DNA of 64,000 nt from Henckelia pumila (taxonomy: Eukaryota > Streptophyta > Magnoliopsida > Lamiales > Gesneriaceae). Shown here piece after piece: positions 1,152 through 64,000 of this stretch. The stretch is from the NCBI RefSeq assembly GCF_033568475.1, contig NC_133123.1, forward strand, positions 157,867,753 through 157,931,752, read 5' to 3'. The notes beneath the pieces were generated by a model, which worked only from the letters and a program-made list of their open reading frames with translations, was not told the DNA's origin and ran no database searches. Numbering within the stretch: position 1 is the stretch's first letter; the number at the start of each line of letters is the position of its first letter. The position numbers were made by a program, and so were the translations under genes.

Positions 1152-5367
<4,216 letters not shown>

Positions 5368-13700: not shown

Positions 13701-14345
13701 TCCCTGCACATTCACAGGAACACTTACACAATGATGATGCAAAATTCTGGCTCCTCCAAAAGAAAATGCCAAACAATTGCTAGCTCATGAAAAGATTATA
13801 ATATTCTTGAACGAACAACTCATTACATAATTTAATTACAACAAATTTCAACCCTTATTTGCCCTACGGATCAATACAATTCTTGCTCAACAATTAAACC
13901 ATGTCAAGAAAAGGGCCGATAGAGAAATGAATCACAGTGTTTGCTGTAAATGTAACAAAACAAGATGGATAAACGAATATCATAAATCTTTATAATTTGA
14001 ATTTCAAGTGTCAAAAGACTCGAAACAGAACACCCACATCTGCGTGATCACAAAACAATCAAATACCCGAAATTGGTTACGCAAGAAGAGGGGAAATTCA
14101 ACTTACTACACGCTTCAAATTAAACAAGAACCCAATTACCACGGAGTCTCAAGGATCTTCACTGACCCAACAATCAATCACTACAGATTACAAATTAACC
14201 GTAACACCTCAAGAAAAACTTCAAGATAGTAGACTTACAGATGTTTGACGAAAGAGGGGCCACAGAAACTACAAAAAAAATGAGTGGGCTTCACGAAATA
14301 TCTGCGAGTGATCGCTGAGCACCGCGTTTGACACCATCTTAATAG
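13701..14345 (-). promoter_or_regulatory. Probable 5' UTR intron and leader exon of HIR copy 1
   Basis: Read on the minus strand, an acceptor (ends tgtgcag) lies a few bases before the ATG at 13700 and a donor-like CT|GTAAGT lies at about 14240. This suggests a leader exon at about 14241-14345 and a 5' UTR intron of about 530 bases. Copy 2 shows the same arrangement. No TATA position can be fixed with confidence. Confidence 0.45.
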
Positions 14346-17616: not shown

Positions 17617-18185
17617 TTCCTACACATTTACAGAAACAGAAACATATTGACAGAAAAATCTGGCTCACGGAAAAATAGAAACAAATAATCGCTAATTCAC
17701 CACAGGATAATAATTTTCTTGAAACAACTCACTACATAACCTTGAGTATAAAATTCTTGCTCATACAAACCAACAATCAAACGATTTCAAGGCAAAAAGC
17801 CTGATTGAAAATCGAGTTACAGTGTCATACGGCGTGTTTGCTACCTATCATGGCATAAAATCTTCCAAAACAAACCCTTTATGCATGTGATAGAAAAATA
17901 TGGGTAAACAAGAACAAAATATTCATCAGTTATATTTCAGGTGCAAAAACAGAACAAAAAAACATAAACTTGATCAAAAACAAGAAAAGGGTTCTAGTGA
18001 AAACACATTTCGGATCACACCAAGAACCCCAATTTACCACTGAGTTTCAGAATCTTGGATGAACCACCAACCAAAACTACAAAAAATTTGAAGGGTTTTA
18101 CTTTTACCGTCTACGAATTATCTGCGGGAGATCGTTAAGCAATGCGAGTTATTGGTGACATCTAATGTCAATAGTATTTATCCTT
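17617..18185 (-). promoter_or_regulatory. Probable 5' UTR intron and leader exon of HIR copy 2
   Basis: As in copy 1, an acceptor (minus strand, ...gtgtag) lies directly before the ATG, and a donor-like gtaaaagt lies at about 18105. The leader exon would be at about 18108-18185. The sequence is diverged from copy 1 in this region. Confidence 0.4.
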
Positions 18186-35000: not shown

Positions 35001-35995
35001 CCAATGACTTCTGTCATACCTTGATTGGCCATTCTAACTTTTCCAAAGTTTTCACTTGAGTAGGACGCAAACATATCTCTGTATGGAGTGATATGATATG
35101 AAGCTCCAGAATCAATAATCCAATCAGTTTGTTGGTATGATACGTTGAAACATGCTTCATCGCCAAAAATGATAATATCTCCATCAGATGTAACTACAAC
35201 TGTGTCTTTCTCTTCTAACTTTGTACCATTCCTTTGATCTCTCTTCTTTTTCATGCATTCTCTTTCGTAATGGTTTGGACCTCCACAATAATGACACTTG
35301 AATTCTTTTCTGGTCTTAGACTTCCCCCTGGATTTGTCTCTTCCTTTCTGAGGACCTCTGGTGTAACTTCGTCCTCGATTATCAGCCGTTTCTGTGACCA
35401 ATGCCTTGGTTTCAGAGTTATATTCTTGCTCTTTTCTTCTAGACTCTTCAGTGAGAAGGCAATCTTTGACTGTTTGTAATGTCATTTTTCCATCAAGAGC
35501 AGAATTACTGAGCGATACCACAAGAGTATCCCAACTATCTGGCATAGAGCTCAGTAGTAACAAGGCTGTAACTTCATCATCTAGGGCAATCTTTATGGTG
35601 GTAGATTTGTTGATTAAACCCTGATAAGTATTTAGGTACTCCGTCATATTTGCACCTTCTTTGTATCTGAGTCGTGCGATACTTCTGATAATTGAGGCTT
35701 TGTTTAAGGCATTCTTCCTCTCAAACATAGCTTCAATTTTTCTCCACAGAGCATCAGCTTTATCTTCGTTTGCAAAGTGATGGAAGATACTATGTTCGAT
35801 AAAACGTCGTATGTAGCCGACAGTTTTTCGATGTAGTATAATCCATTCTTCATTTGATTGATTTTCTGGCTTGACTTCATCACCACTCAAGGGCAAGTAC
35901 AAATCTTTGCAATATAGCAGATCCAGCATGCTTGTCTTCCATATGGAATAGTTTGACCCGTTCAGTTTGAACATCCCTCCAAGGGGCTCCTCCAT
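32051..35995 (-). CDS. Copia gag-pol polyprotein, uninterrupted
   Basis: About 1314 residues from the first ATG (35995) to the stop at 32051. Domains in order: Gag (start MEEPLGGMFKLNGSNYSIW), CCHC zinc knuckle (CHYCGGPNHYEREC, about residue 235), aspartic protease (WIIDSGASYHIT, about 295), pre-integrase (LWHRRLGHIS), integrase core (VHTDLC, RADNGGEYRG, QHNGIVERMN), reverse transcriptase (ARLVVKGFNQKKGVDF, LYVDDMLIIG) and RNase H (GYTDADMAGD, STTESEYIA, SKHIDVRYHWI). This is the copia order, with integrase before RT. Key residues are present and the frame has no stop, so the protein could still be made, although one LTR is broken by the CACTA element. Confidence 0.95.
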   Translation of the reverse strand: MEEPLGGMFKLNGSNYSIWKTSMLDLLYCKDLYLPLSGDEVKPENQSNEEWIILHRKTVGYIRRFIEHSIFHHFANEDKADALWRKIEAMFERKNALNKASIIRSIARLRYKEGANMTEYLNTYQGLINKSTTIKIALDDEVTALLLLSSMPDSWDTLVVSLSNSALDGKMTLQTVKDCLLTEESRRKEQEYNSETKALVTETADNRGRSYTRGPQKGRDKSRGKSKTRKEFKCHYCGGPNHYERECMKKKRDQRNGTKLEEKDTVVVTSDGDIIIFGDEACFNVSYQQTDWIIDSGASYHITPYRDMFASYSSENFGKVRMANQGMTEVIGMGSIVLETDTGSRLTLKEVRHVPDIRLNIISVAKLDDEGCVSHFGEGKWKLIKGSLIIAKGVKQNSLYLMQAKVSSGEVNVSTKNSTIELWHRRLGHISQKGMETLARKKLLPEVSGMHLETCVDCLAGKQHRIAFQSFSPSRKTQCLDLVHTDLCYMKDRTLGGALYFVTFIDDFSRKVWCFALKSKDHVLEIFKNFHAKVERETGMKLKCVRADNGGEYRGPFEQYCSTHGIRLEKSVPKTPQHNGIVERMNRTICEMIKCMLSQSKLPNSFWGEAMRTAIDLINLSPSAPLDGDVPDRVWFGKDVSYKHLRVFECRAFVHIPKDERFKLDDKSKRCIFLGYGHEEFGYRLWDPVNQKIVRSRDVVFLEDEIGCDVEHNKESQPSSSEIPVNLDHVRSPIVRDHGGDMQSDHEELVEPDDSQENSSDSPSETEIRRSTRQRIPYSRYSPHEYVMLIDGGEPESFKEVVSSAQKDKWIKAIKDEMQSLHDNHTYGLVNLPKGKRALKNKWVHRLKTEDNGSRLRYKARLVVKGFNQKKGVDFDEIFSPVVKMSSIRVVLGLAASLDLEIEQLDVKTAFLHGDLDEEIYMDQLEGFKVKGKEKMVCRLNKSLYRLKQALMQWYKKFDSFMMSHGYRRTSSDHCVFLKKYDDNDIIILLLYVDDMLIIGHDSTKIDKLKGELDKSFAMKDLGPAKQILGMKISRDRTNKKLWLSQEHYIEKVLERFKMDKAKTVGTPLAGHFKLSSGQCPTSDEEKKEMESVPYASAVGSLMYAMVCTRPDLAHAVGVVSRFLSNPGKDHWSAVKWIFRYMRGTSRFCLRFGTNLPVLEGYTDADMAGDVDSRKSTSGYLMKFAWGAVSWQSKLQKCVALSTTESEYIATTEACKELLWLKKFLQELGLRQDKFTLYCDSQSAIHLSKNSSLHSRSKHIDVRYHWIQDALNDKLLHLEKIHTDENGSDMFTKSLPKEKLESCRSAASLIEYTK

Positions 35996-36002
35996 TGGAC
36001 GT

Positions 36003-36015
36003 GGCTCTGATACCA
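36003..36015 (-). other. Copia primer-binding site (initiator tRNA-Met type)
   Basis: TGGTATCAGAGCC on the minus strand, two bases after the 5' LTR end CCCAACA. Complementary to the 3' end of plant initiator tRNA-Met, as usual for Copia elements. Confidence 0.93.
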
Positions 36016-36017
36016 CT

Positions 36018-36658
36018 TGTTGGGAAAGATAGCCAAAATTAATTGACTTTTATGTAGCGGAATCTTTTGATTCTTTTTCCCTATACTATCGGATCAAAGT
36101 GTTTCCTTGATATCAATATCAATCAAGATAATAAGCACGAAGAAAATGACACAAGAATTTTTACGTGGAAAACCCAAATTAGGGAAAAACCATGGGACCT
36201 AAGTCCACCAAGAAAATCTCCACTATAACAATAATGGGTACAACATATTCCTAGAATAATAGGAGATAACAACAACGCTCCCTAGAACAACTTAGGGGAT
36301 ACCAAGAACTTCAAGAATAATAGTTCTTGGATGACACACTCAATCTCACTTTACAAATGGAACTCACACAAATCTAATCACATAGAAAATTCTTTCTGAT
36401 GTGGAAGATCGGACATCGCCGCAACCACAGAGCATACTAAAATTTATCTAAATGACTAGGCTACAAAAAACACTATTTATTGCTTGTGTTTTTGGGATTT
36501 CTTGGGATGATTTGAAACAATGGTTTTGGGGTGTATTTATAGGCAAGATTTTGGATGTTAGGTAAAGTGTGAAACCATGACAATGTGAATGGTATCAAGT
36601 TTGGTAGCCATCAAATTTGAGTTGAATTGTTGAATCCAAAATGAGTTGAATTCCAACA
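36018..36658 (-). repeat. 5' LTR of the Copia element
   Basis: 641 bp; on the minus strand begins TGTTGGAATTCAACTC and ends CCCAACA (TG..CA). It should carry the element's promoter. Confidence 0.95.
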
Positions 36659-46884: not shown

Positions 46885-46893
46885 GATTGGTAT

Positions 46894-47125
46894 AAGGAAG
46901 TGTCTAAGTTGATGGAGTGGGTGAACTATTGGCCAGAGGTCAGGAGTTTGATTTCCTCTGCCAACACCTTCTTGGACTAGCCTGTTATACAGGTTGCGGC
47001 TTGCCTAGTGTAGTTTACCTGGCTAACATAGTTTGCAGGTTATTGCGTTAGTTCGGGGGTTTACCCAGTGCGCACCGTAGGTAGCGGTTGCGAATTTCCC
47101 ACGTCACAAAAAAAAAAGAGAAAGA
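46894..47125 (+). mobile_element. SINE with 9-bp target duplication
   Basis: Flanked by GATTGGTAT at 46885-46893 and 47126-47134. A tRNA-like head carries an A-box-like ttgatggagtgg and a B-box-like gagtttgatttcc. The body is about 180 bases and the tail is A-rich (aaaaaaaaaagagaaa). About 232 bp overall. Not assigned to a named family. Confidence 0.85.
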
Positions 47126-47210
47126 GATTGGTATTGATTACACACTTTGTTTTGTACAATGTTTAGTTCAAATTTTTCAAAAATTTGTGTCAAACATCAT
47201 TATTTGTTAT

Positions 47211-47211
47211 C

Positions 47212-47254
<43 letters not shown>

Positions 47255-47384
47255 AATAATCACCTGCACCCTAGAGTGCAGAATTTTTCGTGTGCGATGA
47301 CTAAAACCCGCCGGGTTTTAGTGTTTCTTTTTTTTTTTACACTAACGCACACGAAAAATCCTGTACCCTAGGATGCAGGTGATC

Positions 47385-47448
<64 letters not shown>
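47211..47448. mobile_element. Foldback MITE embedded in (TA)n, Micron-like
   Basis: A core at about 47252-47388 with 36-bp inverted arms (47261-47296 and 47346-47381, four mismatches) and a central palindrome ctaaaacccg/ccgggttttag, bounded on both sides by (TA)n runs (47213-47250 and 47389-47447). MITEs that insert in TA microsatellites are known in rice as Micron; the link here is by structure only. Confidence 0.75.
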
Positions 47449-47452
<4 letters not shown>

Positions 47453-47469
47453 AATTACTTGATACATAG

Positions 47470-48030
47470 GCAAAGCTACCACCATCCCTCACACAACTGC
47501 CATATGGGGGTGAGGACTCCCCATATCTACTAGTATTTCTCCCATTGCCAAATCCAGGACCACGCGGCGCACCACTAGAGCGTTCGAAACCTGGACTATA
47601 GCTACGTGTGCACCCCTACAACGCAGAGGATAAATAGGACTTGAACGTGTTCTATAACCTGAAAAAAGCCATTTTAAATGAATGTTTTCGTGATCCGCAA
47701 CATATCCAGTTAGGAAAAACAAAAAAAATTAAAAAAATATATCTCACTAATACCACGAGGAGGGAGTGGAGGAGAGGGAAACTGTTGGTTGTGTCCATGA
47801 GGAGACGTCGAAATAGTGAAGTTATCATAGGTCATTTTAGCCAACGAGTTTCGAGCTTCCTTGACAGTCTTGTTTTTAGTCGGAGTCTCGAAATTAAGGC
47901 CGTTAACCACAGCAATGGCTTTGAATCTGGGAAGATGGTCTGGGCCCTCTTTCACGGTGCTGTATCCTTGTAGATCTCACCTATTCCTCTGTCACAGCTC
48001 CTGCAATTTACTCTTGTACAATTTTCAGCA
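47470..48030 (-). pseudogene. dsRBD/zinc-finger gene remnant, copy A (no zinc-finger exon)
   Basis: Minus strand. The dsRBD exon (about 48030-47745) reads STVKEGPDHLPRFKAIAVVN with an in-frame TGA at 47979-47977 just before the DL..GY..TVKEGPDH stretch. The Arg/Ser/Gly-rich exon (about 47690-47480) reads GESSPPYGSCVRDG near its end and is still open here, unlike in the other copies. The zinc-finger exon would lie left of the array edge and is absent. Confidence 0.7.
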
Positions 48031-48039
48031 AAAGTCAAA

Positions 48040-48700
48040 TGAATACAAAGACGGATTTAGATTCAAAGGGAGCTTTGCTCCCATTTTCAATTAATTTCTC
48101 GCTTGCATCAAGGGACTTTGAATGCATATCACCATCGACCCATTTAATGCAACCAAGAAGTTGATGTTCATCAAAAGACGAGCTTTGGTCACGGGGGTGT
48201 TAAAAAAAATTTGATTCAAATCCAAAAAATCAAACATCCAACCAAAAATTAAAATTTGAAATTCGGATATAAATGTTAAAACCAAAATTTATTTGGTTTG
48301 TTTCGAATTATATATTTCAAAATCGAACCAACGAAAAAATCGAAATTTTATTAAATTAATAATTTTATTTATTTATATTTTATGATATGATCTTTAGTGA
48401 AATTGTGATTATATGTTTTGCTGACTTTTTTTATTCTTAATTATAAAGATTATTATCTTGATCGATTATTGATATGATTATCTTAGTAGATTATTGATAT
48501 CTTTTATTTAAAAGAGTTATTTACTAACAAAAGACTTGTTTCCATGCTTGCAGACTCTATCAAAAGGAAACAATCTAATTTATTTACTTTAGTGTGGAAG
48601 AAAGAACAAGTGAGATTCACATAGAACAGATGCAGAGAGTTACAGACGATTTCTGAAACCAAGCAATTGAAGATCTAAATTTTTCCGGTTGAAGAATCCT
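48040..48700. other. Array-unit spacer, non-coding (repeated in every unit)
   Basis: Between the dsRBD remnant and the gag remnant each unit has about 650 bases without recognised genes (also about 50310-50900, 52580-53175, 60780-61395 and 63050-63640). The first 150 bases read on the minus strand as FDERQLLGCIKWVDGDMHSK, strongly conserved between units but unrecognised. The rest is AT-rich (gaaattcggatataaatg...). Confidence 0.6.
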
Positions 48701-48708
48701 TGCCGTCG

Positions 48709-49119
48709 TCAAGTGTCCTTCAGAAATTTAGCATATCTAGGCACCTGAGCTACAACATCTTCAAAGGGTATGTTAACATATAGTTTTTTGAAAATTTCAA
48801 TAAACTTTTTAAACTGGAGATCAAACAATAATTGCTTAGCTATATGAGAAAAAGGTAAAGTGAAAATATCAACATCAGCATTAACATTAGAATTTATTTT
48901 CTTACCTTTCTTACCTGTAGGCGATGGTTGTGCGGGGTTGCGCTTGTCCTCTGTTTCCCCATCTCCGTCGATCCTCCTCTCAAGTTCTTCAGATTGTGAT
49001 CTAGTCACAATCATGATAGCATTCACGTCTTTGGGATTCAGTTCTAAATCAACAAAATGAGAAACATGTATCAAGATACAACCACATGTGGGTAGGGTTA
49101 CGGTAGGGCTCGTGGGCAT
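48709..49119 (-). pseudogene. Gypsy-type gag remnant, unit A
   Basis: Minus-strand frame of 136 residues with LPFSHIAKQLLFDLQFKKF and IFKKLYVNIPFED...QVPRYAKFLKD. This is the conserved Gag segment of plant Ty3/Gypsy Athila/Tat-type elements (usual form QFxKFLxxxKxLxINIPFxxALxQMPxYxKFxK). Only this segment of the element is present. Confidence 0.8.
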
Positions 49120-49124
49120 TAGCT

Positions 49125-50295
49125 AGAACCATGGAAACCGCGCCGATCGTCTCTTCCCCAACTCAAGTATATATATACTAGACTGAAATTCTTTAGTAGG
49201 TGCCCTAACTGGAGATGGCGACAACACTCTCCTCCCATAACCTCTCCCCATTCTTTCATTCAATAAATCATTCCTACCATGATCTCTACGATCCCATTCT
49301 AGCAACATCGGTGGTCTATCATACTTGTATCTATCACTATAATCATCTCCTAGAAAATATCGTCTTTCACTTCGAAATGGAGGAGGATCAGGATATCCGG
49401 CTTGGGTGAGGGTCTAGCATCTCCGAAATCTCTAGGATCGTGCCTTGGCCAACCACGGGTAGGGGACCTATAGCTGCCATTCATTATGCGTCCTGGGGAA
49501 TGATAAACCCTTGTCTTGGGGGAAATGAAGGGCCACGATATCCCCTCCTAGGACTGGCAGGTTGTGCGTTGGGGGAATTGTTGCAGTTGCTACATTGCTC
49601 TGGCCTTGGGAAATTCAAGTTTTTGCACCTGCGGGAGGGTATAAAATATTTAATGCACTGAAACAGGTGGTGACAACATGATTTAAGAACAACATCAAAG
49701 TAGTATTTAAAATCCGGGATAAATTCATTGATACAAGAGGCAAACCTGACACCATCCCTCACACAGCCGCCTTATGGGGTGAGGACTCCCCATATCTACT
49801 AGGATTTCTCCCATTTCCAAATCCAGGACCACGCGGCGCACCACTAGAGCATTCGAAACCTGGACTATAGCTACGATGTGCACCCCTACAACGCAGAGGA
49901 GAAATAGGACTTGAACATGTTCTATAACCTAAAAAAAGCCATTTTAAATTAATGTTCATGATCCGCAACATATCCAGTGGAGAAAAACAGAAAAAAATTT
50001 AAAAAATATATCTCACAAATACCACGAGTAGGGAGTGGAGGAGAGGGAGACTGTTTACTGTGTCCATGAGGAGACTTCAAAATAGTGAAGTTATCATAGG
50101 CCATTTTAGCCACCGAGTTTCGAGCTTCCTTGGCAGTCTTGCTTTCAGCCGGAGTCTCAAAATTGAGGCCGTTAACCTCAGCAATGGCTTTGAATCTGAG
50201 ACGATGTTCTGGGCCCTCTTTCACGGTGGTGTATCCCGGTAGATCTCACCTATTCCTCTGGCATAGCTCTTGCAATTTACTCTTGTACATTTTTT
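49125..50295 (-). pseudogene. dsRBD/zinc-finger gene remnant, copy B (all three exons)
   Basis: Minus strand. The dsRBD exon (about 50295-50015) reads MYKSKLQELCQRN, stop TGA (50248-50246), DLPGYTTVKEGPEHRLRFKA and NGLNFETPAESKTAKEARNS, the alpha-beta-beta-beta-alpha consensus of plant dsRNA-binding motifs. The Arg/Ser/Gly-rich exon (about 49960-49745) reads RSYSPGFE and GAPRGPGFGNGRNPSRYGES. After an AG acceptor (ccctcccgcag), the zinc-finger exon (about 49628-49200) reads CKNLNFPRPEQCSNCN, like the second half of a RanBP2-type finger, then an Arg/Pro/Gly/Tyr-rich tail (RPPMLLEWDRRDHGRNDLLN). I cannot name the parent gene. Stops and shifts make it a pseudogene. Confidence 0.75.
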
Positions 50296-52046
50296 AGCAG
50301 AAGTCAAATGAATACAAAGACAAATTTAGATTCGAAGGGAGTTTTGCTCCCCTTTTCAATCAACTTCTTGCTTGCATCAAGGGGATTTGAATGCATATCA
50401 CCATCGACCCATTTAATGCAACCAAGAAGTTGACGTTCATCAAAAGACGGGCTTTGGTCACGGGGGTATTAAACAAATTGTTGATTCAAATCCAAAAATT
50501 TAAACACCCAACCCAAAACTAAAATTTGAAATTCGGATATAAATGTTAAAACCAAAATTTATTTGGTTTGTTTCGAATTATATATTTCAAAATCGAACCG
50601 ATGAAAAAATCGAAATTTTATTAAATTAATAATTTTATTTATTTATATTTTATGATATGATCTTTAGTGAAATTGTGATTATATGTTTTGCTGACTTTTT
50701 TATCCTTAATTATAAAGATTATTATCTTGATCGATTATTTATATGGTTATCTTAGTAGATTATTGATATCTTTTATTTAAAAGAGTTATTTACTAACGAA
50801 AGACATTTCCATGCTTGCAGACTCTATCAAAAGGAAACAATCTAATTTATTTACTTTAGTGTGGAAGAAAGAACAAGTGAGATTCACATAGAACAGATGC
50901 AGAGAGAGTTACAGAGGATTTTTGAAACCAAGAAATTGAAGATCTAAAGTTTTCCTGTTGAAGAATCCTTGCCGTCGTCCAATGTCCTTCAGAAATTTAG
51001 CATATCTAGGCACCTGAGCTAAAGCATCTTCAAAGGATATGTTAACATATAGTTTTTTGAAAATTTCAAGAAACTTTTTAAACTGAAGATCAAACAATAA
51101 TTTCTTAGCTATATGAGGAAAATGTAAAGTGGAAATATCAACATCAGCATTAACATTAGAGTTTATTTTCTTACCTTTCTTACTGTAGGCGATGGTTGTG
51201 CGGGGTTGCGCTTGTCCTCTGTTTCCCCATATCCGTCGATCCTCCTCTCAGGTTTTTCAGATTGTGATCTAGTCACAACCATGATAGCATTCACGTCCTT
51301 GGGATTCGGTTCTAAATCAACAAAATAAGAAACATGTATCAAGATACAGCCACATGTGGGTAGGTTACGGTGGGGATCGGGGGCATTAGCTAGAAGCCTA
51401 GAAACAGTTCCGATCGTCTCTTCCCCAACTCAAGTATATATATACCAGACTGAAATTCTTTAGTAGGTGCCCTAACTGAAGATGGCGACAGCACTCTCCT
51501 CCCATAACCTCTCCCCATTCTTTCATTCAATAAATCATTCCTACCATGATCTCTACGATCCCATTCTAGCAACATCGGTGGTCTATCATACTTGTATTTA
51601 TCACTATAATCATCTCCTAGAAAATGTCGTCTTTCACTTCGAAATGGAGGAGGATCAGGATATCCAGCTTGGGTGAGGGTCTAGCAGCTCCAAAATCTCT
51701 AGGATCGTGCCTTGGCCAACCACGGGTAGGAGACCTATAGCTGCCATTCATTATGCATCCTGGGGAATGATAAACCCTTGTCTTGGGGGAAATGAAGGGC
51801 CAGGATATCCCCTCCTAGGACTGACAGGTTGTGCATTGGGGGAATTGTTGCAGTTGCTACAATGCTCTGGCCTTGGGAAATACAAGTTTTTGCACCTGCG
51901 GAAGGGTATAAAATATTTAATGCACTGAAACAGGTGGTGACAGCATGATTTAAGAACAACATCAAAGTAGTATTTAAAATCCGGGATAAATTCATTGATA
52001 CAAGAGGCAAACCTGACACCATCCCTCACACAGCTGCCTTATGGGG
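49779..52046. repeat. Array unit B
   Basis: 2268 bp. One G is missing from the gggg run at its left edge, shifting the reading frame there. Confidence 0.92.
50909..51330 (-). pseudogene. Gypsy-type gag remnant, unit B
   Basis: Same Gag segment as in unit A (FKKFLEIFKKLYVNISFEDA). A base is missing in the lysine-rich linker relative to unit A, so the upstream MIVTRSQSEE-type part is out of frame. Confidence 0.78.
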
Positions 52047-52570
52047 GTGAGGACTCCCCATATCTACTATGATTTCTCCCATTGCCAAATCCAGGACCAC
52101 GCGGCGCACCACTAGAGCATTCGAAACCTGGACTATAGCTACGATGTGCACCCCTACAACGCAGAGGAGAAATAGGACTTGAACGTGTTCTATAACCTCA
52201 AAAAAAGCCATTTTAAATTAATGTTTTCGTGATCCGCAACATATCCAGTGGAGAAAAACAGATAAAAAATTTAAAAAATAAATCTCACAAATACCACGAG
52301 GAGGTAGTGGAGGAGATGGAGACTATTGACTGTGTCCATGAGGAGACTTCAAAATAGTGAAGTTATCATAGGCCATTTTAGCCACCGAGTTTCGAGCTTC
52401 CTTGGCAGTCTTGATTTCAGCCGGAGTCTCAAAATTGAGGCCGTTAACCTCAACAATGGCTTTGAATCTGGGACGATGGTCTGGGCCCTCTTTCACTGTG
52501 GTGTATCCCGGTAGATCTCACATATTCCTCTGGCACAGCTCCTGCAATTTACTCTTGTACATTTTTCAGC
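51395..52570 (-). pseudogene. dsRBD/zinc-finger gene remnant, copy C
   Basis: Same three exon remnants as copy B. The shared TGA of the dsRBD exon is at 52520-52518. At the end of the Arg/Ser-rich exon the frame meets TAA (SPP then stop) where copy A has TAT. Confidence 0.75.
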
Positions 52571-53180
52571 AGAAGTCAAATGAATACAAAGACGAATTTA
52601 GATTCGAAGGGAGTTTTGCTCCCCTTTTCAATCAACTTCTCGCTTGCATCAAGGGGCTTTGAATGCATATCACCATCGACCCATTTAATGCAACCAAGAA
52701 GTTGACGTTCATCAAAAGACGGGCTTTGGTCACGGGGGTGTTAAAAAAATTGTTGATTCAAATCCAAAAAATCAAACACCCAACCCAAAACTAAAATTTA
52801 AAATTCGGATATAAATGTTAAAATTGAAATTTATTTGGTTTGTTTCGGATTATATATTTCAAAATCGAACCGACGCAAAAACCAAAATTTTATTAAATTA
52901 ATAATTTTATTTATTTATATTTTATGATATGATCTTTAGTGAAATTGTGATTATATGTTTTGCTGACTTTTTTATCCTTAATTATAAAGATAATTATCTT
53001 GATCGATTATTGATATGGTTATCTTAGTAGATTATTGATATCTTTTATTTAAAAAAGTTATTTACTAACAAAAGACTTTTCCATGCTTGCAGACTCTATC
53101 AAAAGGAAACAATCTAATTTATTTACTTTAGTGTGGAAGAAAGAACAAGTGAGATTCACATAGAACAGATGCAGAGAGAG

Positions 53181-53600
53181 TTACAGAGGATTTCTGAAAC
53201 AAAGAAATTGAAGATCTAAAGTTTTTCGGTTGAAGAATCCTTGCCGTCGTCCAGTATCTTTCAGAAATTTAGCATATCTAGGCACCTGAGCCAAAGCATC
53301 TTCAAAGGGTATGTTAACATATAGTTTTTTGAAAATTTCAAGAAATTTTTTAAACTGAAGATCAAACAATAATTTATTAGCTACATGAGGAAAAGGTGAA
53401 GTGGAAATTTCAACATCAGCATTAACATTAGAATTTATTTTCTTACCTCTCTTACCTGTAGGCGATGGTTGTGCGGGGTTGCGCTTGTCCTCTGTTTCCC
53501 CATCTCCGTCGATCCTCCTCTCAGGTTCTTCAGATTGTTATCTAATCACAACCATGATAGCATTCATGTCCTTGGGATTTGGTTCTAAATCAAAAATAAG
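53181..53600 (-). pseudogene. Gypsy-type gag remnant, unit C
   Basis: Same segment; FKKFLEIFKKLYVNIPFEDA intact, upstream part contains an extra stop in the SQSEEPERR region (tta in place of tga-type codon). Confidence 0.75.
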
Positions 53601-54150
53601 AAACATGTATCAAGATACAGCCACATGTGGGTAGGGTTACGGAGGGGCTCGAGGGCATTAGCTAGAAGCCTAGAAACCGCGCCGATCGTCTCTTCCCCAA
53701 CTCAAGTATATATATACCAGACTGAAATTATTTAGTAGGTGCCCTAACTGAAGATGGCGACAACACTTTCCTCCCATAACATCTCCCCATTCTTTCATTC
53801 AATAAATTATTCTTACCATGATCTCTACGATCCCATTCTAGCAACATCGGTGGTCTATCATACTTGTATCAAATAAGAAACATGTATCAAGATACAGCCA
53901 CATGTGGGTAGGGTTACGGTGGGGCTCGAGGGCATTAGCTAGAAGCCTAGAAACCGCGCCGATCGTCTCTTCCCCAACTCAAGTATATATATACCAGACT
54001 GAAATTATTTAGTAGGTGCCCTAACTGAAGATGGCGACAACACTTTCCTCCCATAACCTCTCCCCATTCTTTCATTCAATAAATTATTCCTACCATGATC
54101 TCTACGATCCCATTCTAGCAACATCGGTGGTCTATCATACTTGTATCTAT
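53594..54150. repeat. 277-bp direct duplication inside unit C
   Basis: The segment starting aaataagaaacatgtatc is present twice (offset 277, at 53600 and 53877). It covers the junction between the gag remnant and the zinc-finger exon tail. The two copies are almost identical, so the event is recent. Confidence 0.9.
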
Positions 54151-54601
54151 AACTATAATCAACTCCTAGAAAATATCGTCTTTCACTTCGAAATGGAGGA
54201 GGATCAGGATATCCGGCTTGGGGTGAGGGTCTAGCAGCTCCAAAATCTCTAAGATCGTGCCTTGGCCAACCACGGGTTGGGGACCTATAGCTGCCATTCA
54301 TTATGCGTCCTGGGGAATGATAAACCCTTATCTTAGGGGAAATGAAGGGCCAGGATATCCCCTCCTAGGACTGGCAGGTTGTGCGTTGGGGGAATTTTTT
54401 CAGTTGCTACAATGCTCTGGCCTTGGAAAATTCAAGTTTTTGCACCTGCGGGAGGGTATAAAATATTTAATGCACTGAAACAGGTGGTGACAACATGATT
54501 TAAGAACAACATCAAAGTAGTATTTATAATCCGGTATAAATTCATTGATACAAGAGGAAAACCTGACACCATCCCTCACACAGCTGCCTTATGGGGGTGA
54601 G

Positions 54602-56051
54602 TGATAAGTGTATTTTATACAGTTAATTTATATATGATTTTAATTATTAAATGTTGGTTTCGAGCAGATTTATGTGGGTGTTTTGTTGTTTTTGTGATTG
54701 TAGGAAATTATCGAATTATTGTGAAAAAGAAGAAGGAAATGAGATTGATGAAGAGAATTTAAAGAAGCTGAGAAGAAAAAGAAAGGAAAAGAAAGAAGAG
54801 AAGTCAAGAGAAGAAAAAGAAAAGAAGAAAAGAAACGTACAGACAAGAAGGAAAGTTATTGGGCTTTTGCTTAATGGGCCAATGGTTAGCGCTATCTTTA
54901 GCGCTAAAGGAGAAAAAGGGAAGAGCTATCGCGCAAGACACATGAAGGCGTGAGAATTGAATTCCAGAGAGCCATGCGCGCCCGCCTATAGTTCTGAAGC
55001 GCCCGCGCCTCGAAGAGATTTCTGAATTTAGAATTTTATCCGGAAAGGAAACTTTTGTATTTTTACGGGCTTTTTGATGGGCTTTTTTAGGACGATTTAA
55101 AAAGGAGACTTCTGAGTGCAATGGAGAGAGCCGCCACAACACAAACTTACGTACATATTAGAGAAGAGATCGTGACTTTCTGTGGAATTTCTGTGAAGAA
55201 TTTCTGGAGCTTAATTGAAGAACGAAGACGGAGTTCGATAGACCGGACACGGCGTCGACGACGGATTTGATTCTTATCTTTATCTTTTATTTTATTCTGA
55301 ATATGTTTGGATTTATGAATTATTGTTTTATTCAGAATTTTATTATGAACTAATTTTTTAGAGTCTAGAGGTCGGGTGAAACCTGATGTAGACACTTTCA
55401 TGAATTTTTGATTTTATTGAATTGAGTTTCTTCTAGATTAATTGTTTTTTTCTAGAATTGATTGTCTTTTCAATTATCTGATCAATAATTGATTTGTTAT
55501 ACTTATTTGAATTATGGCACTCGGGAGAGGAGATTTTGAATAGGACCAATAGAGAATACACTGTTAATTATTTATACAGCTCGGGAGAGTGTATAATTTT
55601 AACAGAGCTTTTAAAGAGAACATTGTTTTGTGATAGATCACTGCGATAAATTCTTAATAAGGATATTGGAATTGAATTGTAGTTGATAAAAATTATTTGT
55701 TGCTCGGGAGAGGGAAATAATAAACTTAAGTGTTCTTGACTATTAATTGATTTGGATTCATGAAACTAAATTAATTAGGATTGACTGTTGTTGAAACATG
55801 TGAAATCTATACATCTAGATCATTTTTCTCTGATTGAATTTTATCTGAAAGTTGTGTGCGTGCTAATCAAAACTTCATTGCTATTTTATTTTTATTGCGC
55901 ATTTCTCTTTATTTGATTTTCTAGATAAAGTTTGGACTATTTTAATTACAAGTACTGAATATTTTCATTTTACTCTCTGTGGGATCGATATCTGATTTTA
56001 TCACTATATTAAAACTTGACATTCGTACGCTTGCGAGCAATTTTCACAACA
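54602..56051 (+). repeat. 5' LTR of the LARD-like element
   Basis: 1450 bp, TGATAAGTG...CACAACA. Contains CTCTGTGGGATCGA near its end, a lysine/glutamate-rich purine stretch (54720-54850) and GC-rich agcgct and gcgcccgcgc phrases (54890-55015). Confidence 0.95.
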
Positions 56052-56057
56052 AGTTTT

Positions 56058-56075
56058 TGGCGCCGTTGCTGGGGA
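56058..56075 (+). other. Primer-binding site, tRNA-Asp type
   Basis: TGGCGCCGTTGCTGGGGA, six bases after the 5' LTR. It matches the reverse complement of the 3' end of plant tRNA-Asp with one mismatch, the primer typical of Tat/Athila Gypsy elements. Confidence 0.9.
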
Positions 56076-58778
56076 GTAAATTTTGATTATTTTTTTAGTC
56101 TTGTTACCAATTAGTCTAGATTTTAATTTAGAGTTTTTATTTTATTTTATTTTAAGTTACTAATTAATTTTTCTAATTTTAATTGCAGTTTATGCGACGA
56201 TCTCAAAACACCAATTTTGATTGATGATTGGCGAGTAAAAAAGAAATAGAAGATCTAACACCGGTGAAAGTCGGGCTGATGACTTTAAACCAAGCGCTAC
56301 TTGGGAGGAAACCCAAGCATTTTCTTTTATTTTATTTTATTTGCTTTTATTTTCAGTTTAATTTATTTTTTTATTTAGACGTTTTTAAGTATTTTTTATT
56401 TTTAATTTTTGAGCTTAATTTTTCTTAATTTTCAAAATTTTTCAGGCTCTAGAAAATCTCAATGCCGAGCGAAGGGCGCGCCCGCCCCACTTAATCGAGC
56501 GCCCGCGCGATACCCTTTATGAAATTGGAGTTGTTTGCAAAATTAAAGGCGCGCCCGCGCCACTCCTGCCGAGCGCCCGCGCTTCCTCTGCGCCACACTA
56601 ATGCAAGAACTAGCGTTAATGCGCTGCTCATTAGCGCTATCGCGCTACACACCCTCCATCTGCGCCCTACTTAGCGCTAACGTGCACTCCGAAAGCCACT
56701 ATCCGCGCCAGCTCTTGCGCAATCGCGCTCATCCCAGCCCACCATCAGCGCTGCCTCTAGCGCTAACGCGCGTCCAGCCTCCCCATCTGTGCTTCAACAA
56801 CTGCACAACCGTCTGCACCTCTACCTTGCGCAAATAACCTCTTCAGCCCTGCCTCCTCTTGAGCAAGCACTCCACAGCAGCAATCCCATGCGTGATCGTG
56901 TTTCCCAGCAGCATGCTAACAGCTCATCTCCATGGCCCTTCTTCCATGCACCATCGTCCTTCATGGCTACTATGCCTAGCACTCGTTCCTTTTCACTTAG
57001 CCATTAAGAGTTTGCTATTGTCTTTATTGCTTTAGGGATTCGTTATTGTTTCTTATTGTGTGCATGTTTTATTTTTTCAAGCCAATTTGGATGTTCATGT
57101 CGTGTTTCTCAACCACTTTAACCATGATGAAGGGATGCGAATTATGATCTTACCATGGAAAATTTGATAACATCGAGTACTGATGCTCGGTGTCGAAGGT
57201 ATGAGTCCCTTGATCTTTTTATTGATTTTTAATCATTAGGGACAATGATTACATTAAGTTTGGGGGGGTGAATCATTTTGTTTGAATTAGTTGGTTGGTT
57301 GATATTGTAGTTGAATTTTACTGTGTGATTCATAGATTAAAATTTTGTTGTGTTAGTCGAGTTGAAAAGAAGTTGAGAAAGAATTGGATGCATGGCTAAT
57401 GATGAAAATATTTTTTATGCTATAACTGAAATCCATGATTGTCTGCCTATCTGACAAATATTTTTGAAAAAAATGGAACCAATTGAATGAACAAATTTCC
57501 TATATACTCTGTGATTAATACTTGAATCTGATTTTTGAGACGTACAGACATAGATATGATTGAGGCATTGTTTGAAATTTTGGGCCTAATTTTTATTGAA
57601 TTAATTTATCCTTAGTAGCCCATTTGAGCTTACACTTATACGAGTACATTGAGGTACGGAAAATCTAAATTTGTTGAAAATCATCGTTTACTGCTGATGA
57701 TTATGCTTTTCTGCACTGATTGGATATTTGTATGAATTAATTGTGGATTGAGACTTGTCTAGAACTAGTTCGGACACTCTTCGAGGCGAAATACGGGCAA
57801 AACTGAGATTAGGAATGATTTAGGTTATTTTTTTGAATTCGTTTTAGCCTTTCAAGCTATTAATTATTTATTTTATCCCCAGTACCTTGTTTGAGCTTTA
57901 TCGATAATCGAATGGATGCGTGTAAACGTGTGATAAAACTCCCATTCATCATTATTTCAAGATCCTACATTGACTGCCTGAATAGCCTAAACACTAATTC
58001 CTACCTTTAAGGGAGTAATTTGAATGCTAAAATGTTATATGCTCCTAGTTTTATTTGTGAAAATGGAATGGTGTGGTGGATGAATTGAAAATAAAGAGGT
58101 AGTAGAAAAGAAAAAAAATTGTGTGGAAAAAAGTTGAAAGAGAAGAAGTGAAAATTTGAAAAATCAATGAAGTGAAGAAAAAAAAAAGTGTGAACGTGTG
58201 AATGAAAGGAGTTGAAATTAGAGCATAAATATGAATTACTCCTTATTTTTGAATTCTTATTCCTTTATTTGTAGTCATGAGTCAGGCCTGACATTATAAG
58301 CTAATTAAGTCCTATTGACCGAGTCTCAGTTGCCCAATATACTAGTGGAGAAGAGTTGCGAGAATTTAGCCTATGGACTGTTGATTGATACTTTTAATGA
58401 TTATGAATTTTGATCTAAATACTTACACACTATTATTCTTTGAATTTACCTATTTGTGAGTGTTTTTGATAGATATCCTATATTTGATCTTATGCTACCT
58501 TGAAAAGTCCTCATGATCTATGAATGTGTGAATTGAACTTGGATAAGGGTGTTTTGAACGTGAGTTGCGGAGATTGTGAGTTTATGCGGTTATTTTGTTA
58601 TTGGCTAAAACTTTCAAGTGTTAGTAGGTTGGATGAGATTGGATTTGATTATTTTTGAAATCATTGCCGAGGCCATTGCTCCATAATATTTCCTGGCTAT
58701 TTTTGTTGGTTGTTGGGTAGTATTAGTTTTTGGAATATTAGTATTTTGAATAGTTTTGCTCGGGACTAGCAAAAGTCT
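56076..58778 (+). other. Internal domain of the LARD-like element, non-coding
   Basis: No gag, protease, RT, RNase H or integrase motif on either strand. A short frame at 56228 reads MTLNQALLGRKPK. Similar short sequences follow the coding part of Tat/Athila elements. A block at 56455-56775 is GC-rich and dense in gcgcccgc and agcgct/gcgctaacgcgc phrases. A second purine-tract-like phrase (ttaagtttgggggggtg) lies at about 57254-57270. Confidence 0.7.
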
Positions 58779-58793
58779 AAGTTTGGGGGTATT

Positions 58794-60244
58794 TGATAAG
58801 TGTATTTTATAAACTTAATTTATATATAATTTTAATTATTAAATATTGGTTTCGAGCAGATTTATGTGAGTGTTTTGTTGTTTTTGTGATTGTAGGAAAT
58901 TATCGAATTATTGTGGAAAAGAAGAAGGAAATGAGATTGATGAAGAGAATTTAAAGAAGCTGAGAAGAAAAAGAAAGGAAAAGAAAGAAGAGAAGTCAAG
59001 AGAAGAAAAAGAAAAGAAGAAAAGAAACGTACAGACAAGAAGGAAAGTTATTGGGCTTTTGCTTAATGGGCCAATGGTTAGCGCTATCTTTAGCGCTAAA
59101 GGAGAGAAAGGAAAGAGCTATCGCGCAAGACACATGAAGGCGTGAGAATTGAATTCCAGAAAGCCATGCGCGCCCGCCTATAGTTCTGAAGCGCCCGCGC
59201 CTCGAAGAGATTTCTGAATTTAGAATTTTATCCGGAAAGGAAACTTTTATATTTTTACGGGCTTTTTGATGGGCTTTTTGAGGACGATTTAAAAAGGAGA
59301 TTTCTGAGTGCAATGGAGAGAGCCGCCACAACACAAACTTACGTACAGATTAGAGAAGAGATCGTGACTTTCTGTGGAATTTCTGTGAAGAATTTCTGGA
59401 GCTTAATTGAAGAATGAAGACGGAGTTCGATAGACCGGACACGACGTCGACGACGGATTTGATTCTTATCTTTATCTTTTATTTTATTCTGAATATATTT
59501 GGATTTATGAAGTATTGTTTTATTCATAATTTTATTATGAACTAATTTTTTAGAGTCTAGAGGTCGGATGGAATCTGGTGTAGACACTTTCATGAATTTT
59601 TGATTTTATTGAATTGAGTTTCTTCTAGATTAATTATTTTTTTCTAGAATTGATTGTCTTTTCAATTATTTGATCAATAATTGATTTGTTATATTTATTT
59701 GAAATCTGGCACTCGGGAGAGGAGATTTTAAATAGGACCAATAGAGAATACACTGTTAATTATTTATACAGCTCAGGAGAGTGTATAATTTTAACAAAGC
59801 TTTTAAAGAGAACATTGTTTTGTGATAGATCACTGCGATAAATTCTTAATAGGGATATTGGAATTGAATTGTAGTTGATAAAAATTATTTGTTTCTCGGG
59901 AGAGGGAAATAATATACTTAAGTGTTTTTGGCTATTAATTAATTGGAATTCATGAAACTAAATTAATTAGGATTGACTGTTGATGAAACCAGGTGAAATC
60001 TATACCTCTACACCATTTTTCTCTGATTGAATTTTATCTGAAAGTTGAGTGCGTGCTAATCAAAACTTCATTGCTATTTTATTTTTATTGCGAATTTCTC
60101 TTTATTTGATTTTCTAGATAAAGTTTAGACTATTTTAATTACAAGTACTGAATATTTTTATTTTACTCTCTGTGGGATCGATATCTGATTTTATCACTAT
60201 ATTAAAACTTGACACTCGTACGCTTGCGAGCAATTTTCACAACA
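58794..60244 (+). repeat. 3' LTR of the LARD-like element
   Basis: 1451 bp, begins TGATAAGTG directly after the purine tract and ends CACAACA, collinear with the 5' LTR. Confidence 0.95.
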
Positions 60245-62514
60245 GTGAGGACTCCCCATATCTACTAGGATTTCTCCCATTACTAAATCCAGGACCACGC
60301 GGCGCACCACTAGAGCATTCGAAACCTGGACTATAGCTACGATGTGCACCCCTACAACGCAGAGGAGAAATAGGACTTGAACGTGTTTTATAACCTAAAA
60401 AAAGCCAATTTAAATTAATGTTTTCATGATCCGCAACATATCCAGTGGAGAAAAATAGAAAAAAAAAATTTTAAAATATATCTCACAAATACCACAAGGA
60501 GGGAGTTGAGGAGAGGGAGACTGTAGGCTGTGTCCATGAGGAGACTTCGAAATAGTGAAGTTATCATAGGCCATTTTAGCCACCGAGTTTCGAGCTTCCT
60601 TGGCAGTCTTGCTTTTAGCCGGAGTATCAAAATTGAGGCCATTAACCTCAGCAATGGCTTTGAATCTGGGACGATGGTCTGGACCCTCTTTCATGGTGGT
60701 GTATCCCGGTAGATCTCACATATTCCTCTGGCACAACTCCTGCAATTTACTCTTGTACATTTTTCAGCAGAAGTCAAATGAATACAAAGACGAATTTAGA
60801 TTCGAAAGGAGTTTTGCTCCCCTTTTCAATCAACTCCTCGCTTGCATCAAGGGGCTTTGAATGCATATCACCATCGACCCATTTAATGCAACCAAGAAGT
60901 TGACGTTCATCAAAAGACGGGCTTTGGTCACGGGGGTGTTTAAAAAATTGTTGATTCAAATCCAAAAAATCAAACAACCAACCCAAAACTAAAATTTGAA
61001 ATTCGGATATAAATGTTATAATCGAAATTTATTTGGTTTGTTTCGGATTATATATTTCAAAATCGAACCGGCAAAAAAATCGAAATTTTATTAAATTAAT
61101 AATTTTATTTATTTATATTTTATGATATGATCTTTAGTGAAATTGTGATTATATGTTTTGCTGACTTTTTTATCCTTAATTATAAAGATTATTATCTTGA
61201 TCGATTATTGATATGGTTATCTTAGTAGATTATTGATATCTTTCATTTAAAAGAGTTATTTACTAACAAAAGACTTTTCCATGCTTGCAGACTCTACCAA
61301 AAGGAAACAATCTAATTTATTTACTTTAGTGTGGAAGAAAGAACAAGTGAGATTCACATAGAACAGATGCAGAGAGAGTTATAAAGGATTTCTGAAACCA
61401 ATAAATTGAAGATCTAAAGTTTTTCGGTTGAAGAATCCTTGCCGTCGTCCAGTGTCCTTCATAAATTTAGCATATCTAGGCACCTGAGCTAAAGCATCTT
61501 CAAAGGGTATGTTAACATATAGTTTTTTGAAAATTTCAAGAAACTTTTTAAACTAAAGATCAAACAATAATTTCTTAGCTATATGAGGAAAAGGTAAAGT
61601 GGAAATATCAACATCAGCATTAACATTAGAATTTATTTTCTTACCTTTTCTTACCTGTAGGCGATGGTTGTGCGGGGTTGCGCTTGCCTCTGTTTCCCCA
61701 TCTCCGTCGATCCTCCTCTCAGGTTCTTCAGATTGTGATCTAGTCACAACCATGATAGCATTCACGTCCTTGGGATTCGGTTCTAAATCAACAAAATAAG
61801 AAACATGTATCAAGATACAGCCACATGTGGGTAGGGTTACGGTGGGGCTCGGTGGCATTAGCTAGAAGCCTAGACCGCGCCGATCGTCTCTTCCCCAACT
61901 CAAGTATATATATACCAGACTGAAATTCATTAGTAGGTACCCTAACTGGAGATGGCGACAGCACTCTCCTCCCATAACCTCTCCCCATTTTTTCATTCAA
62001 TAAATCATTCCTACCATGATCTCTACGATCCCATTCTAGCAACATCGGTGGTCTATCATACTTGTATCTATCACTATAATCATCTCCTAGAAAATATCGT
62101 CTTTCACTTTGAAATGGAGGAGGATCAGGATATCCGGCTTGGGTGAGGGTCTAGCAGCTTCAAAATCTCTAGGATCGTGCCTTGGACAACCACGGTAGGG
62201 GACCTATAGCTGCCATTCATTATGCATCCTGGGGAATGATAAACCCTTGTCTTGGGGGAAATGAAGGGCCAGGATATCCCCTCCTAGGACTCGCAGGTTG
62301 TGCGTTGGGGGAATTGTTGCAGTTGCTACAATGCTCTGGCCTTGGGAAATTAAAGTTTTTGCACCTACGGGAGGGTATAAAATATTTAATGCACTGAAAC
62401 AGGTGGTGACAACATGATTTAAGAACAACATCAAAGTAGTATTTAAAATTCGGGATAAATTCATTGATACAAGAGGCAAACCTGACACCATCCCTCACAC
62501 AGCCGCCTTATGGG
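60245..62514. repeat. Array unit D
   Basis: 2270 bp. Its first bases, GTGAG, are the right-hand target duplication of the LTR element. Confidence 0.92.
61400..61830 (-). pseudogene. Gypsy-type gag remnant, unit D
   Basis: Same Gag segment, with a stop in the LLFDLQFKKF region (taa at the position of the glutamine codon) and a frameshift in the SPTGKKGKK linker. Confidence 0.75.
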
Positions 62515-63040
62515 GTGACGACTCCCCATATCTACTAGGATTTCTCCCATATCCAAATCCAGGACCACGCGGCGCACCACTAGAGCATTTGAAACCTGGA
62601 CTATAGCTACGATGTGCACCCCTACAACGCAGAGGAGAAATAGGACTTGAACGTGTTCTATAACCTAAAAAAAGCCATTTTAAATTAATGTTTTCATGAT
62701 CCGCAACATATCCAGTGGAGAAAAACATAAAAAAATTTAAAAAATATATCTCAAAAATACCATGAGGAGGGAGTGGAGGAGAGGGAGACTGTTGCTGTGT
62801 CCATGAGGAGACTTCGAAATAGTGAAGTTATCATAGGCCATTTTAGCCACGGAGTTTCGAGCTTCCTTGGCAGTCTTGCTTTCAGCCGGAGTCTCAAAAT
62901 TGAGGTCGTTAACCTAAGCAATGGCTTTGAATCTGGGACGATGGTCTGGTCCCTCTTTCACGGTGGTGTATCCCGGTAGATCTCACCTATTCCTCTGTCA
63001 CAGCTCCTGCAATTTACTCTTGTACATTTTTCAGCAGAAG
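61885..63040 (-). pseudogene. dsRBD/zinc-finger gene remnant, copy E
   Basis: Same three exon remnants. dsRBD stop TGA at 62985-62983. The Arg/Ser-rich exon ends like copy B, with one G missing from the gggg run. Confidence 0.75.
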
Positions 63041-64000
63041 TCAAATGAATACAAAGACGAATTTAGATTCGAAGGGAGTTTTGCTCCCCTTTTCAATCAA
63101 CTTCTCGCTTGCATCAAGGGGCTTTGAATGCATAACACCATCGATCCATTTAATGCAACCAAGAAGTTTACGTTCATCAAAAGACGGGCTTTGGTCACGG
63201 GGGTGTTAAAAAATTGTTGATTCAAATCCAAAAAATTAAACACCCAACCCAAAACTAAAATTTGAAATTCGGATATAAATGTTAAAACCGAAATTTATTT
63301 GGTTCGTTTCGGATTATATATCTCAAAATCGAACCGACGAAAAAATCAAAATTTTATTAAATTAATAATTTTATTTATTTATATTTTATGATATGATCTT
63401 TAGTGAAATTGTGATTATATGTTTTGCTGAATTTTTTATCCTTAATTATAAAGATTATTATCTTGATCGATTATTGATATGGTTATCTTAGTAGATTATT
63501 GATATCTTTTATTTAAAAGAGTTATTTACTAACAAAAGACTTTTCCATGCTCGCAGACTCTATCAAAAGGAAACAATCTAATTTATTTACTTTAGTGTGG
63601 AAGAAAGAACAAGTGAGATTCACATAGAACAGATTCAGAGTGAGTTACAGAGGATTTCTGAAACCAAGAAATTGTAGATCTAATGTTTTCCGGTTGAAGA
63701 ATCCTTGCCGTCGTCCAGTGTCCTTCATAAATTTAGCATATCTAGGCACCTGAGCTAAAGCATCTTCAAATTCTATGTTAACATATAGTTTTTTAAAAAT
63801 TTCAAGAAACTTTTTAAACTGAAAATCAAGCAATAATTTCTTAGCTATATGAGAAAAAGGTAAAGTGGAAATATCAACATCAGCATTAACATTAGAATTT
63901 ATTTTCTTACCTGTAGGCGATGGTTGTGGGTTGCGCTTGTCCTTTGTTTCCCCATCTCCGTCGATCCTCCTCTCAGGTTCTTCAGATTGTGATCTAGTCA
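62515..64000. repeat. Array unit E, cut by the window end
   Basis: 1486 bp visible, ending inside the gag remnant. Confidence 0.92.
63645..64000 (-). pseudogene. Gypsy-type gag remnant, unit E, cut by window end
   Basis: Same Gag segment (FKKFLEIFKKLYVNIEFEDA). A deletion in the lysine-rich linker relative to the other units (cttacctttcttacctg reduced to cttacctg). Confidence 0.75.

Follow-up and report, generated by a model that had tools for sequence, protein, structure and literature searches.

The window analysed here is a 64,000-nucleotide stretch of the genome of Henckelia pumila (Gesneriaceae), positions 157867753-157931752 of contig NC_133123.1 (C4 below; the assembly comprises 884.66 Mb in 133 contigs). 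From window position 47450 to C4:157941507, ~9.76 kb past the window end, lies one local cluster of a tandemly repeated unit of about 2.27 kb, with five full copies (u1-u5) and one partial copy (u6), all in one orientation (Table 1). The unit is a patchwork of host gene fragments, dispersed repeats and a fragment of a Ty3/gypsy retrotransposon. Two long terminal repeat (LTR) elements interrupt the array, and a relative of one of them holds a piece of the array at a second site on the same contig.

Self-BLAST of the window gave matches as long as 4161 bp (94.5% identity), far beyond chance, and the head-to-tail, same-orientation array proposed in a preliminary description is borne out by this self-comparison, with copies running from 47450 to the window end. 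The copies are less uniform than the "close to identical" units described there: identity among u1-u5 is 93.6-96.1%, and divergence across the copies reaches 4-9%, the end copies being the most diverged. Nor does the array behave as the long-period satellite to which it had been likened, as it amounts to five full copies plus a partial sixth at a single locus; its monomers are not homogenised, given the 4-9% divergence and the few splits shared among copies. A genome search with the whole unit reported 50 matches (40 of 1446 candidates scored), among which the whole chimera occurs at one locus only and the others are parts of the unit; the unit is thus not the body of a dispersed transposon, a possibility that had been raised against it. 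With the zinc-finger/dsRBD stretch alone (dsRBD, double-stranded RNA-binding domain), all 10 of 10 candidates were scored: seven rows lie in the array, two in a parent gene on contig C103, and one is a short piece elsewhere on C4 (L012).

Table 1. Features of the array and of the related site on C4. Positions are those of the window unless a contig or segment is named; u2 is the reference unit, and unit position p corresponds to window position 49718+p. K2P, Kimura two-parameter distance; TSD, target-site duplication; UTR, untranslated region; MITE, miniature inverted-repeat transposable element.
Feature	Position	Strand	Remarks
Fold-back element between (TA)n tracts, left array edge	47208..47447		
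Copy u1	47450..49718	-	2269 bp; left end copy, directly after (TA)n tract; placed by anchor positions and self-BLAST
Copy u2	49719..51985	-	2267 bp
Zinc-finger fragment part b, u2	49740..49941	-	Exon and end of preceding intron; 90% to C103 parent L011:3437-3636
97-bp link, u2	49942..50038		Unit 224-320; splice-like ends
dsRBD first exon and leader of DRB-like gene, u2	50039..50396	-	Unit 321-678
Dispersed MITE-like repeat (label by look), u2	50471..50673		Unit 753-955; 34 of 40 reported places outside the array (40 of 516 candidates scored)
Second dispersed, more diverged repeat, u2	50674..50983		Unit 956-1265; 68-83% elsewhere in matches of ~80 bp or longer
gag-protease piece, u2	50984..51312	-	329 bp, unit 1266-1594; from the gag-to-protease interval in a dispersed Ty3/gypsy family
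Zinc-finger fragment part a, u2	51307..51985	-	Half RanBP2 finger to 3'UTR; 82-88% to L011:4477-5248, without parent 5006-5060
Copy u3	51986..54535	-	2550 bp including nested 277-bp duplication; 2273 bp without it
277-bp tandem duplication in u3	53594..54147 (53594-53870 / 53871-54147)		K2P 0.011
Copy u4	54536..62454	-	2271 bp with insertion left out; split by LTR element 1 into 54536-54601 and 60250-62454
LTR element 1	54602..60244	+	5643 bp, in u4; LTRs 54602-56051 and 58794-60244 (TGATAA...ACAACA)
Copy u5	62455..64000	-	2255 bp; cut at window end, completed by L009:1-709 of neighbouring DNA
Copy u6	L009/L010, beyond window		Partial, unit positions 1-1592; split by LTR element 2
LTR element 2	L009/L010, beyond window		7443 bp; splits u6 at unit position 672-678; TSD ATGCA
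Element 2 relative holding remote piece	C4:157808976-157832987 (L012, L026)		TSD ATTAA on both sides; LTR K2P 0.037
Remote piece	C4:157810297-157810634 (L012)		338 bp, unit positions 341-678

A single gene on C103 is 82-90% identical to unit positions 22-223 and 1589-2267. In this parent the reading is open across the examined exons and includes a RanBP2-type zinc finger (Pfam Zn_ribbon_RanBP, E 3.5e-05, 23.4 bits, under the 27-bit cut-off); the half finger left in the unit gave only one chance match (E 2.1) when compared with solved structures. The array's zinc-finger piece retains parental intron sequence before two exons, with introns judged by splice-like ends and open frames, and therefore was not copied from spliced RNA. 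Compared with the parent it lacks ~840 bp, comprising the end of an exon and the greater part of an intron, and a further 55 bp beyond this gap, and a frameshift in the zinc-finger exon is common to all four copies available.

The second host piece derives from a different gene. Two copies of the dsRBD piece were scanned, and both exceeded the gathering score of Pfam dsrm (5.3e-05 and 2.3e-05); the piece also matches plant DRB2/3/4 structures (best 1.7e-08), so that the dsRBD label stands, whereas the single dsRBD/zinc-finger parent gene of the preliminary description gives way to two genes, the zinc-finger gene on C103 and a separate DRB-like gene with relatives on contig C2. The conserved tryptophan of the domain is replaced by a stop in all five copies u1-u5, and four pattern matches of the piece to viral contigs were not confirmed. 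A protein search with the dsRBD exon (26 of 26 candidates scored) found 18 places: 6 in the array, 1 on C4 left of the array, 8 at C2:109.41-109.46 Mb (61-72%) and 3 elsewhere (42-45%). Among these, C2:109463699 (65%), with an open dsRBD exon and a second dsRBD nearby, is the likeliest intact relative, to judge from its sequence; the DRB-like parent exon is 85% identical over 230 bp. At C2:109413144-109424883 (L013, L014) separate ~1.08-kb tandem units bear the DRB-like dsRBD exon in seven copies, arranged as two, then a gap, then five, which are 80-83% identical to the unit and lie ~39 kb from the likely intact gene. The dsRBD exon has therefore been tandemly multiplied twice in this genome.

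The retrotransposon part of the unit makes up less than a sixth of it. Its family has at least 32 dispersed matches outside the array among the matches reported; seven of these copies were retrieved and three scanned, and open reading frames (ORFs) beside the piece match Retrotrans_gag in all three, with an aspartic protease (Asp_protease_2) in both scanned copies that hold that part, one of them just under the cut-off. The gypsy gag label of the preliminary description is thus upheld through ORFs adjoining dispersed relatives; the 329-bp fragment itself reached no Pfam gathering score, and 18 pattern matches to viral contigs were not confirmed. The Tat/Athila-like lineage named there is a putative assignment. 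The remainder of the unit comprises the two dispersed repeats and two links: the 97-bp link, without a separate match beyond the array (all 10 of 10 candidates were scored), and a 74-bp link at unit positions 679-752, between the dsRBD piece and the MITE-like repeat.

The contact between retrotransposon and host gene is explained by the ends of the array. At the head-to-tail joint, gag switches to the zinc-finger 3'UTR at CGGT, four bases common to both parents. In u6 the gag match runs ~70 bp beyond the joint position, to a (TA)n tract at right-flank position 9823/9826, and this extension is matched by 7 of 7 dispersed copies examined, of the 32 reported. Because the rightmost copy continues into gag, the gag/zinc-finger contact is, on the alignments, a head-to-tail duplication joint. 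The preliminary description had proposed a fusion of retrotransposon and host gene followed by tandem amplification; a unit of host exon-intron remnants with a gypsy gag fragment and its head-to-tail amplification are both confirmed, but the fusion by a retrotransposon is not, the contact being a duplication joint. The joint connects unrelated sequences that share four bases, as in illegitimate recombination of the kind described for the maize repeat CRM1TR, a pathway that would account for it. On the left, a (TA)n tract and a fold-back element precede u1, which begins at unit position 1.

(TA)n tracts abut or nearly abut both array ends (window 47390-47447 and C4:157941577-157941632) and are perhaps break sites at which the patchwork entered. 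In a search for an empty site, neither flank recurred other than as dispersed repeats (40 of 4565 and 40 of 2958 candidates scored). Just left of the array, window 46893-47117 is a short high-copy dispersed repeat, 83-87% identical in full-length matches and resembling a short interspersed nuclear element by look.

Element 1, which lies inside the array and was absent from the preliminary description, has LTRs of 1450 and 1451 bp (K2P 0.034), a TSD of GTGAG at 54597-54601 and 60245-60249, and from 56058 the sequence TGGCGCCGTTGCTGGGGA, which we take to be a primer-binding site; with these features it is an LTR retrotransposon. It is probably non-autonomous, since the ORF list holds no ORF of more than 120 codons within it. 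In element 2, frames match gag, protease, reverse transcriptase, RNase H and integrase families, and the LTRs differ by a K2P of 0.042.

As stops and frameshifts are common to the copies, the pieces were dead before amplification. Variable sites are spread evenly across codon positions 1/2/3, at 8/15/11 of 66 each in the dsRBD frame and 12/10/9 of 60 each in the gag frame, with no sign of selection in these two frames tested. C>T changes affect 52 of 227 CG+CHG positions vs. 58 of 643 CHH positions (odds ratio 3.0, p=3e-7), and other changes of C affect 12 of 227 vs. 57 of 643 without such a bias (p=0.11), in a count restricted to columns with at least five letters and no more than one deviating copy. 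The C>T preference for CG and CHG is what unselected, methylated DNA would give. Pairwise distances (K2P) are 0.086 between u1 and u6, 0.061-0.068 between u6 and the inner copies, 0.060-0.062 between u1 and u2-u5, and 0.040-0.048 among u2-u5. Outgroup comparison, limited to sites with a single derived state and to the 14 commonest patterns printed, is in line with old ends: a derived state is common to u1-u5 and absent from u6 at 7 (outgroup L015) or 6 (outgroup L016) gag sites, and is common to u2-u6 and absent from u1 at 4 dsRBD and 2 zf_b sites. Old ends with a young middle fit the outcome expected of repeated exchange in mid-array.

We propose, with considerable confidence, that the array arose from a dead patchwork by tandem duplication, expansion of the middle to about six copies, insertion of two LTR elements and silent decay. 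A patchwork of the zinc-finger 3' part, the DRB-like dsRBD exon, two dispersed repeats and the gag piece would already have been present, coding-dead, at this spot on C4; a tandem duplication, probably via short shared sequence, would have joined its gag end to its zinc-finger end; unequal exchange would then have expanded the middle of the array; the two LTR elements would have inserted after that expansion; and the array would now be decaying as silent, methylated sequence. All dating in this proposal is relative, as no clock is calibrated for the species.

Several observations weigh against this proposal or fit it poorly. The microhomology at the joint is suggestive only as to the pathway, because a random joint has a ~1.6% chance of four or more shared bases under a simple model and because the zinc-finger parent is 10-18% diverged; the left duplication breakpoint is lost, as the left end of u1 was lost at the (TA)n tract. 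Methylation of the array would follow from mutation context alone. The dsRBD piece varies in 52 of 357 columns and the 97-bp link in 20 of 96, vs. 8-12% elsewhere (u6 left out of this per-segment variation). The mark of u1 as the oldest copy is missing from the largest piece, zf_a1 (506 columns), where no site separating u2-u5 from u1 is among the printed patterns, and two gag sites (outgroup L015) group u1 with u6. Finally, the inner copies are star-like, with 12 two-against-two sites vs. 201 single-copy sites and few shared splits, which would fit a burst as well as stepwise unequal exchange.

Other explanations appear far less probable. The array may have been retained for small RNAs that it yields, which would tune either the DRB-like gene or the zinc-finger gene: 200 of the 2080 21-mers in the zinc-finger parent stretch have a perfect match in at least one copy, and the C>T pattern fits methylated DNA. 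But only 8 of 580 21-mers of the DRB-like parent stretch have one, which leaves very few perfect matches through which the dsRNA-binding parent could be silenced; the two frames bear no mark of selection, and the single orientation of all copies provides no built-in hairpin between them. We regard such a role as very unlikely. Slightly less likely again is that a Helitron or a Pack-type transposon captured the gene pieces and that the array is a series of head-to-tail insertions. Capture of this sort typically yields several intron-bearing gene pieces in one orientation, as seen in the unit; yet no CTRR/TC stands at the unit boundary (the six matches in 47450-54601 all fall in the gag piece or the zinc-finger exon), no terminal inverted repeat of the Pack-MULE or Pack-CACTA kind bounds the unit-long stretch that was examined (short arms only, 73-86% complementary), no dispersed copy of the chimera is among the matches reported, and the head-to-tail joint sits inside gag and a 3'UTR.

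Less probable still is transduction of host gene parts by a retrotransposon along with its own gag, followed by amplification of the fused copy. The gag piece does adjoin the gene pieces in the same orientation, but the intron sequence kept before two zinc-finger exons argues against it, as does the nature of the contact, a duplication joint past which the end copy continues into gag. An assembly artefact, the least probable of these explanations and one we consider close to negligible, comes to mind because tandem repeats are often misassembled; the preliminary description had named collapsed reads as a concern, which is allayed by the 4-9% divergence of copies that each have many private changes, by two LTR insertions with TSDs, each in a single copy and at different unit positions, and by a remote element that bears private sites of u6.

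The 338-bp remote piece is 97.9% identical (331 of 338) to u6 and at most 95.6% identical to the other copies, with seven sites in common with u6 alone and one with u3 alone. It lies in a relative of element 2 that sits 82-106 kb left of the array and is split by a later 16,483-bp insertion (TSD TTCTC). In the sense of this relative, the u6 piece comes after the 5' LTR and ahead of the internal region and the 3' LTR; it occupies the place of element 2's primer-binding site, which is missing from the relative. What we call the primer-binding site of element 2 is presumably that. In element 2 itself, the corresponding stretch of u6 comes directly after the 3' LTR. C4:157808976-157832987 thus combines a complete element, its own TSD and the flank of the source copy. 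The dsRBD piece in L012 had also been considered as the source of the array and as a sign of a circular or tandem intermediate, and both were dropped given the LTRs, the TSD and the private u6 sites.

Because of the same LTRs, TSD and private sites, the remote piece is best read, at the level of sequence, as a retrotransposon transduction. A modest balance of probability favours the following course: a transcript of element 2 would have passed its 3' LTR into the dsRBD piece of u6; an irregular strand transfer at short shared sequence would have set this piece between 5' LTR and internal region, replacing the primer-binding site; and the new element copy would have integrated 82-106 kb off with its own target duplication. 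Alternatively, a circle may have recombined into an older LTR to make the relative, and the event would then retain the TSD of that LTR; this course is less simple than read-through. If the read-through of element 2 into u6 is correct, parts of tandem debris can be exported by retroelements nested within it, and such element copies, without a primer-binding site, could not prime again in the usual way.

Movement of adjoining host DNA by read-through of an LTR element is known from the 3'-transductions by Rider at SUN and by an Arabidopsis TRIM, from which the present case differs in that the piece came from a copy of a tandem array and lies between 5' LTR and internal region (PMC13317346, available portion). 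The same portion of this 2026 review gives Bs1, a TRIM and Rider as plant examples, cites a survey that counted 1343 transduced sequences in sorghum LTR elements, and describes 5'-transduction as unreported in plants. A limited literature search that included this portion found no earlier description of host DNA placed between the 5' LTR and the internal region. The case links tandem debris to retrotransposon transduction, and similar ones can be searched for in other plant genomes.

The array itself is an ordinary sort of genome debris, of a known kind, and the transduced piece is its more unusual part. In the available portions of PMC3648361, CRM1TR and CRM4TR are maize tandem repeats from centromeric Ty3/gypsy elements, CRM1TR at two neighbouring loci; like them, the array is a local tandem repeat with Ty3/gypsy DNA and a probable illegitimate-recombination joint, its amplification dated by LTR elements inserted later. 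Whereas they consist wholly of one retroelement (its LTR and UTR), the array is mostly host pseudogene and other repeats, with a gag-protease segment as its retrotransposon part. The sobo satellite of wild potato likewise has a long chimeric monomer (4.7 kb) of gypsy-related and genomic DNA, but extends over ~360 kb, unlike the five full copies and a partial one found here (PMC3648361). With the maize P1-wr cluster and the chimeric p2/p1 gene the array shares a tandem multicopy plant locus and a chimera, the p2/p1 chimera being ascribed to non-homologous end-joining with later exchange among the copies; P1-wr copies are genes, whereas those of the array are dead fragments (PMC2686159, as far as available). 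Satellites from LTR retrotransposons are also described for Lathyrus in the portion of PMC7004042 at hand. The array offers a small, relatively datable case of the origin of long-period tandem repeats, which would begin with a patchwork of scraps from genes and transposons, pass through a single illegitimate joint and expansion of the middle, and end in decay. It also illustrates that an apparent gene-retrotransposon fusion can be simply a duplication joint.

Elsewhere in the window there are genes for a multi-C2-domain protein with a PRT_C domain and for a Transferase-family acyltransferase, and copia elements; no RNA families at gathering score and no tRNAs were found in the window. Duplicated blocks at 11971-17739 are 83-93% identical and hold ORFs, which presumably resemble a hypersensitive-induced-reaction (SPFH) protein; two pieces scanned gave no Pfam match. 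At 32054-36049 a copia-type element, probably young, has a single open frame of 1332 codons.

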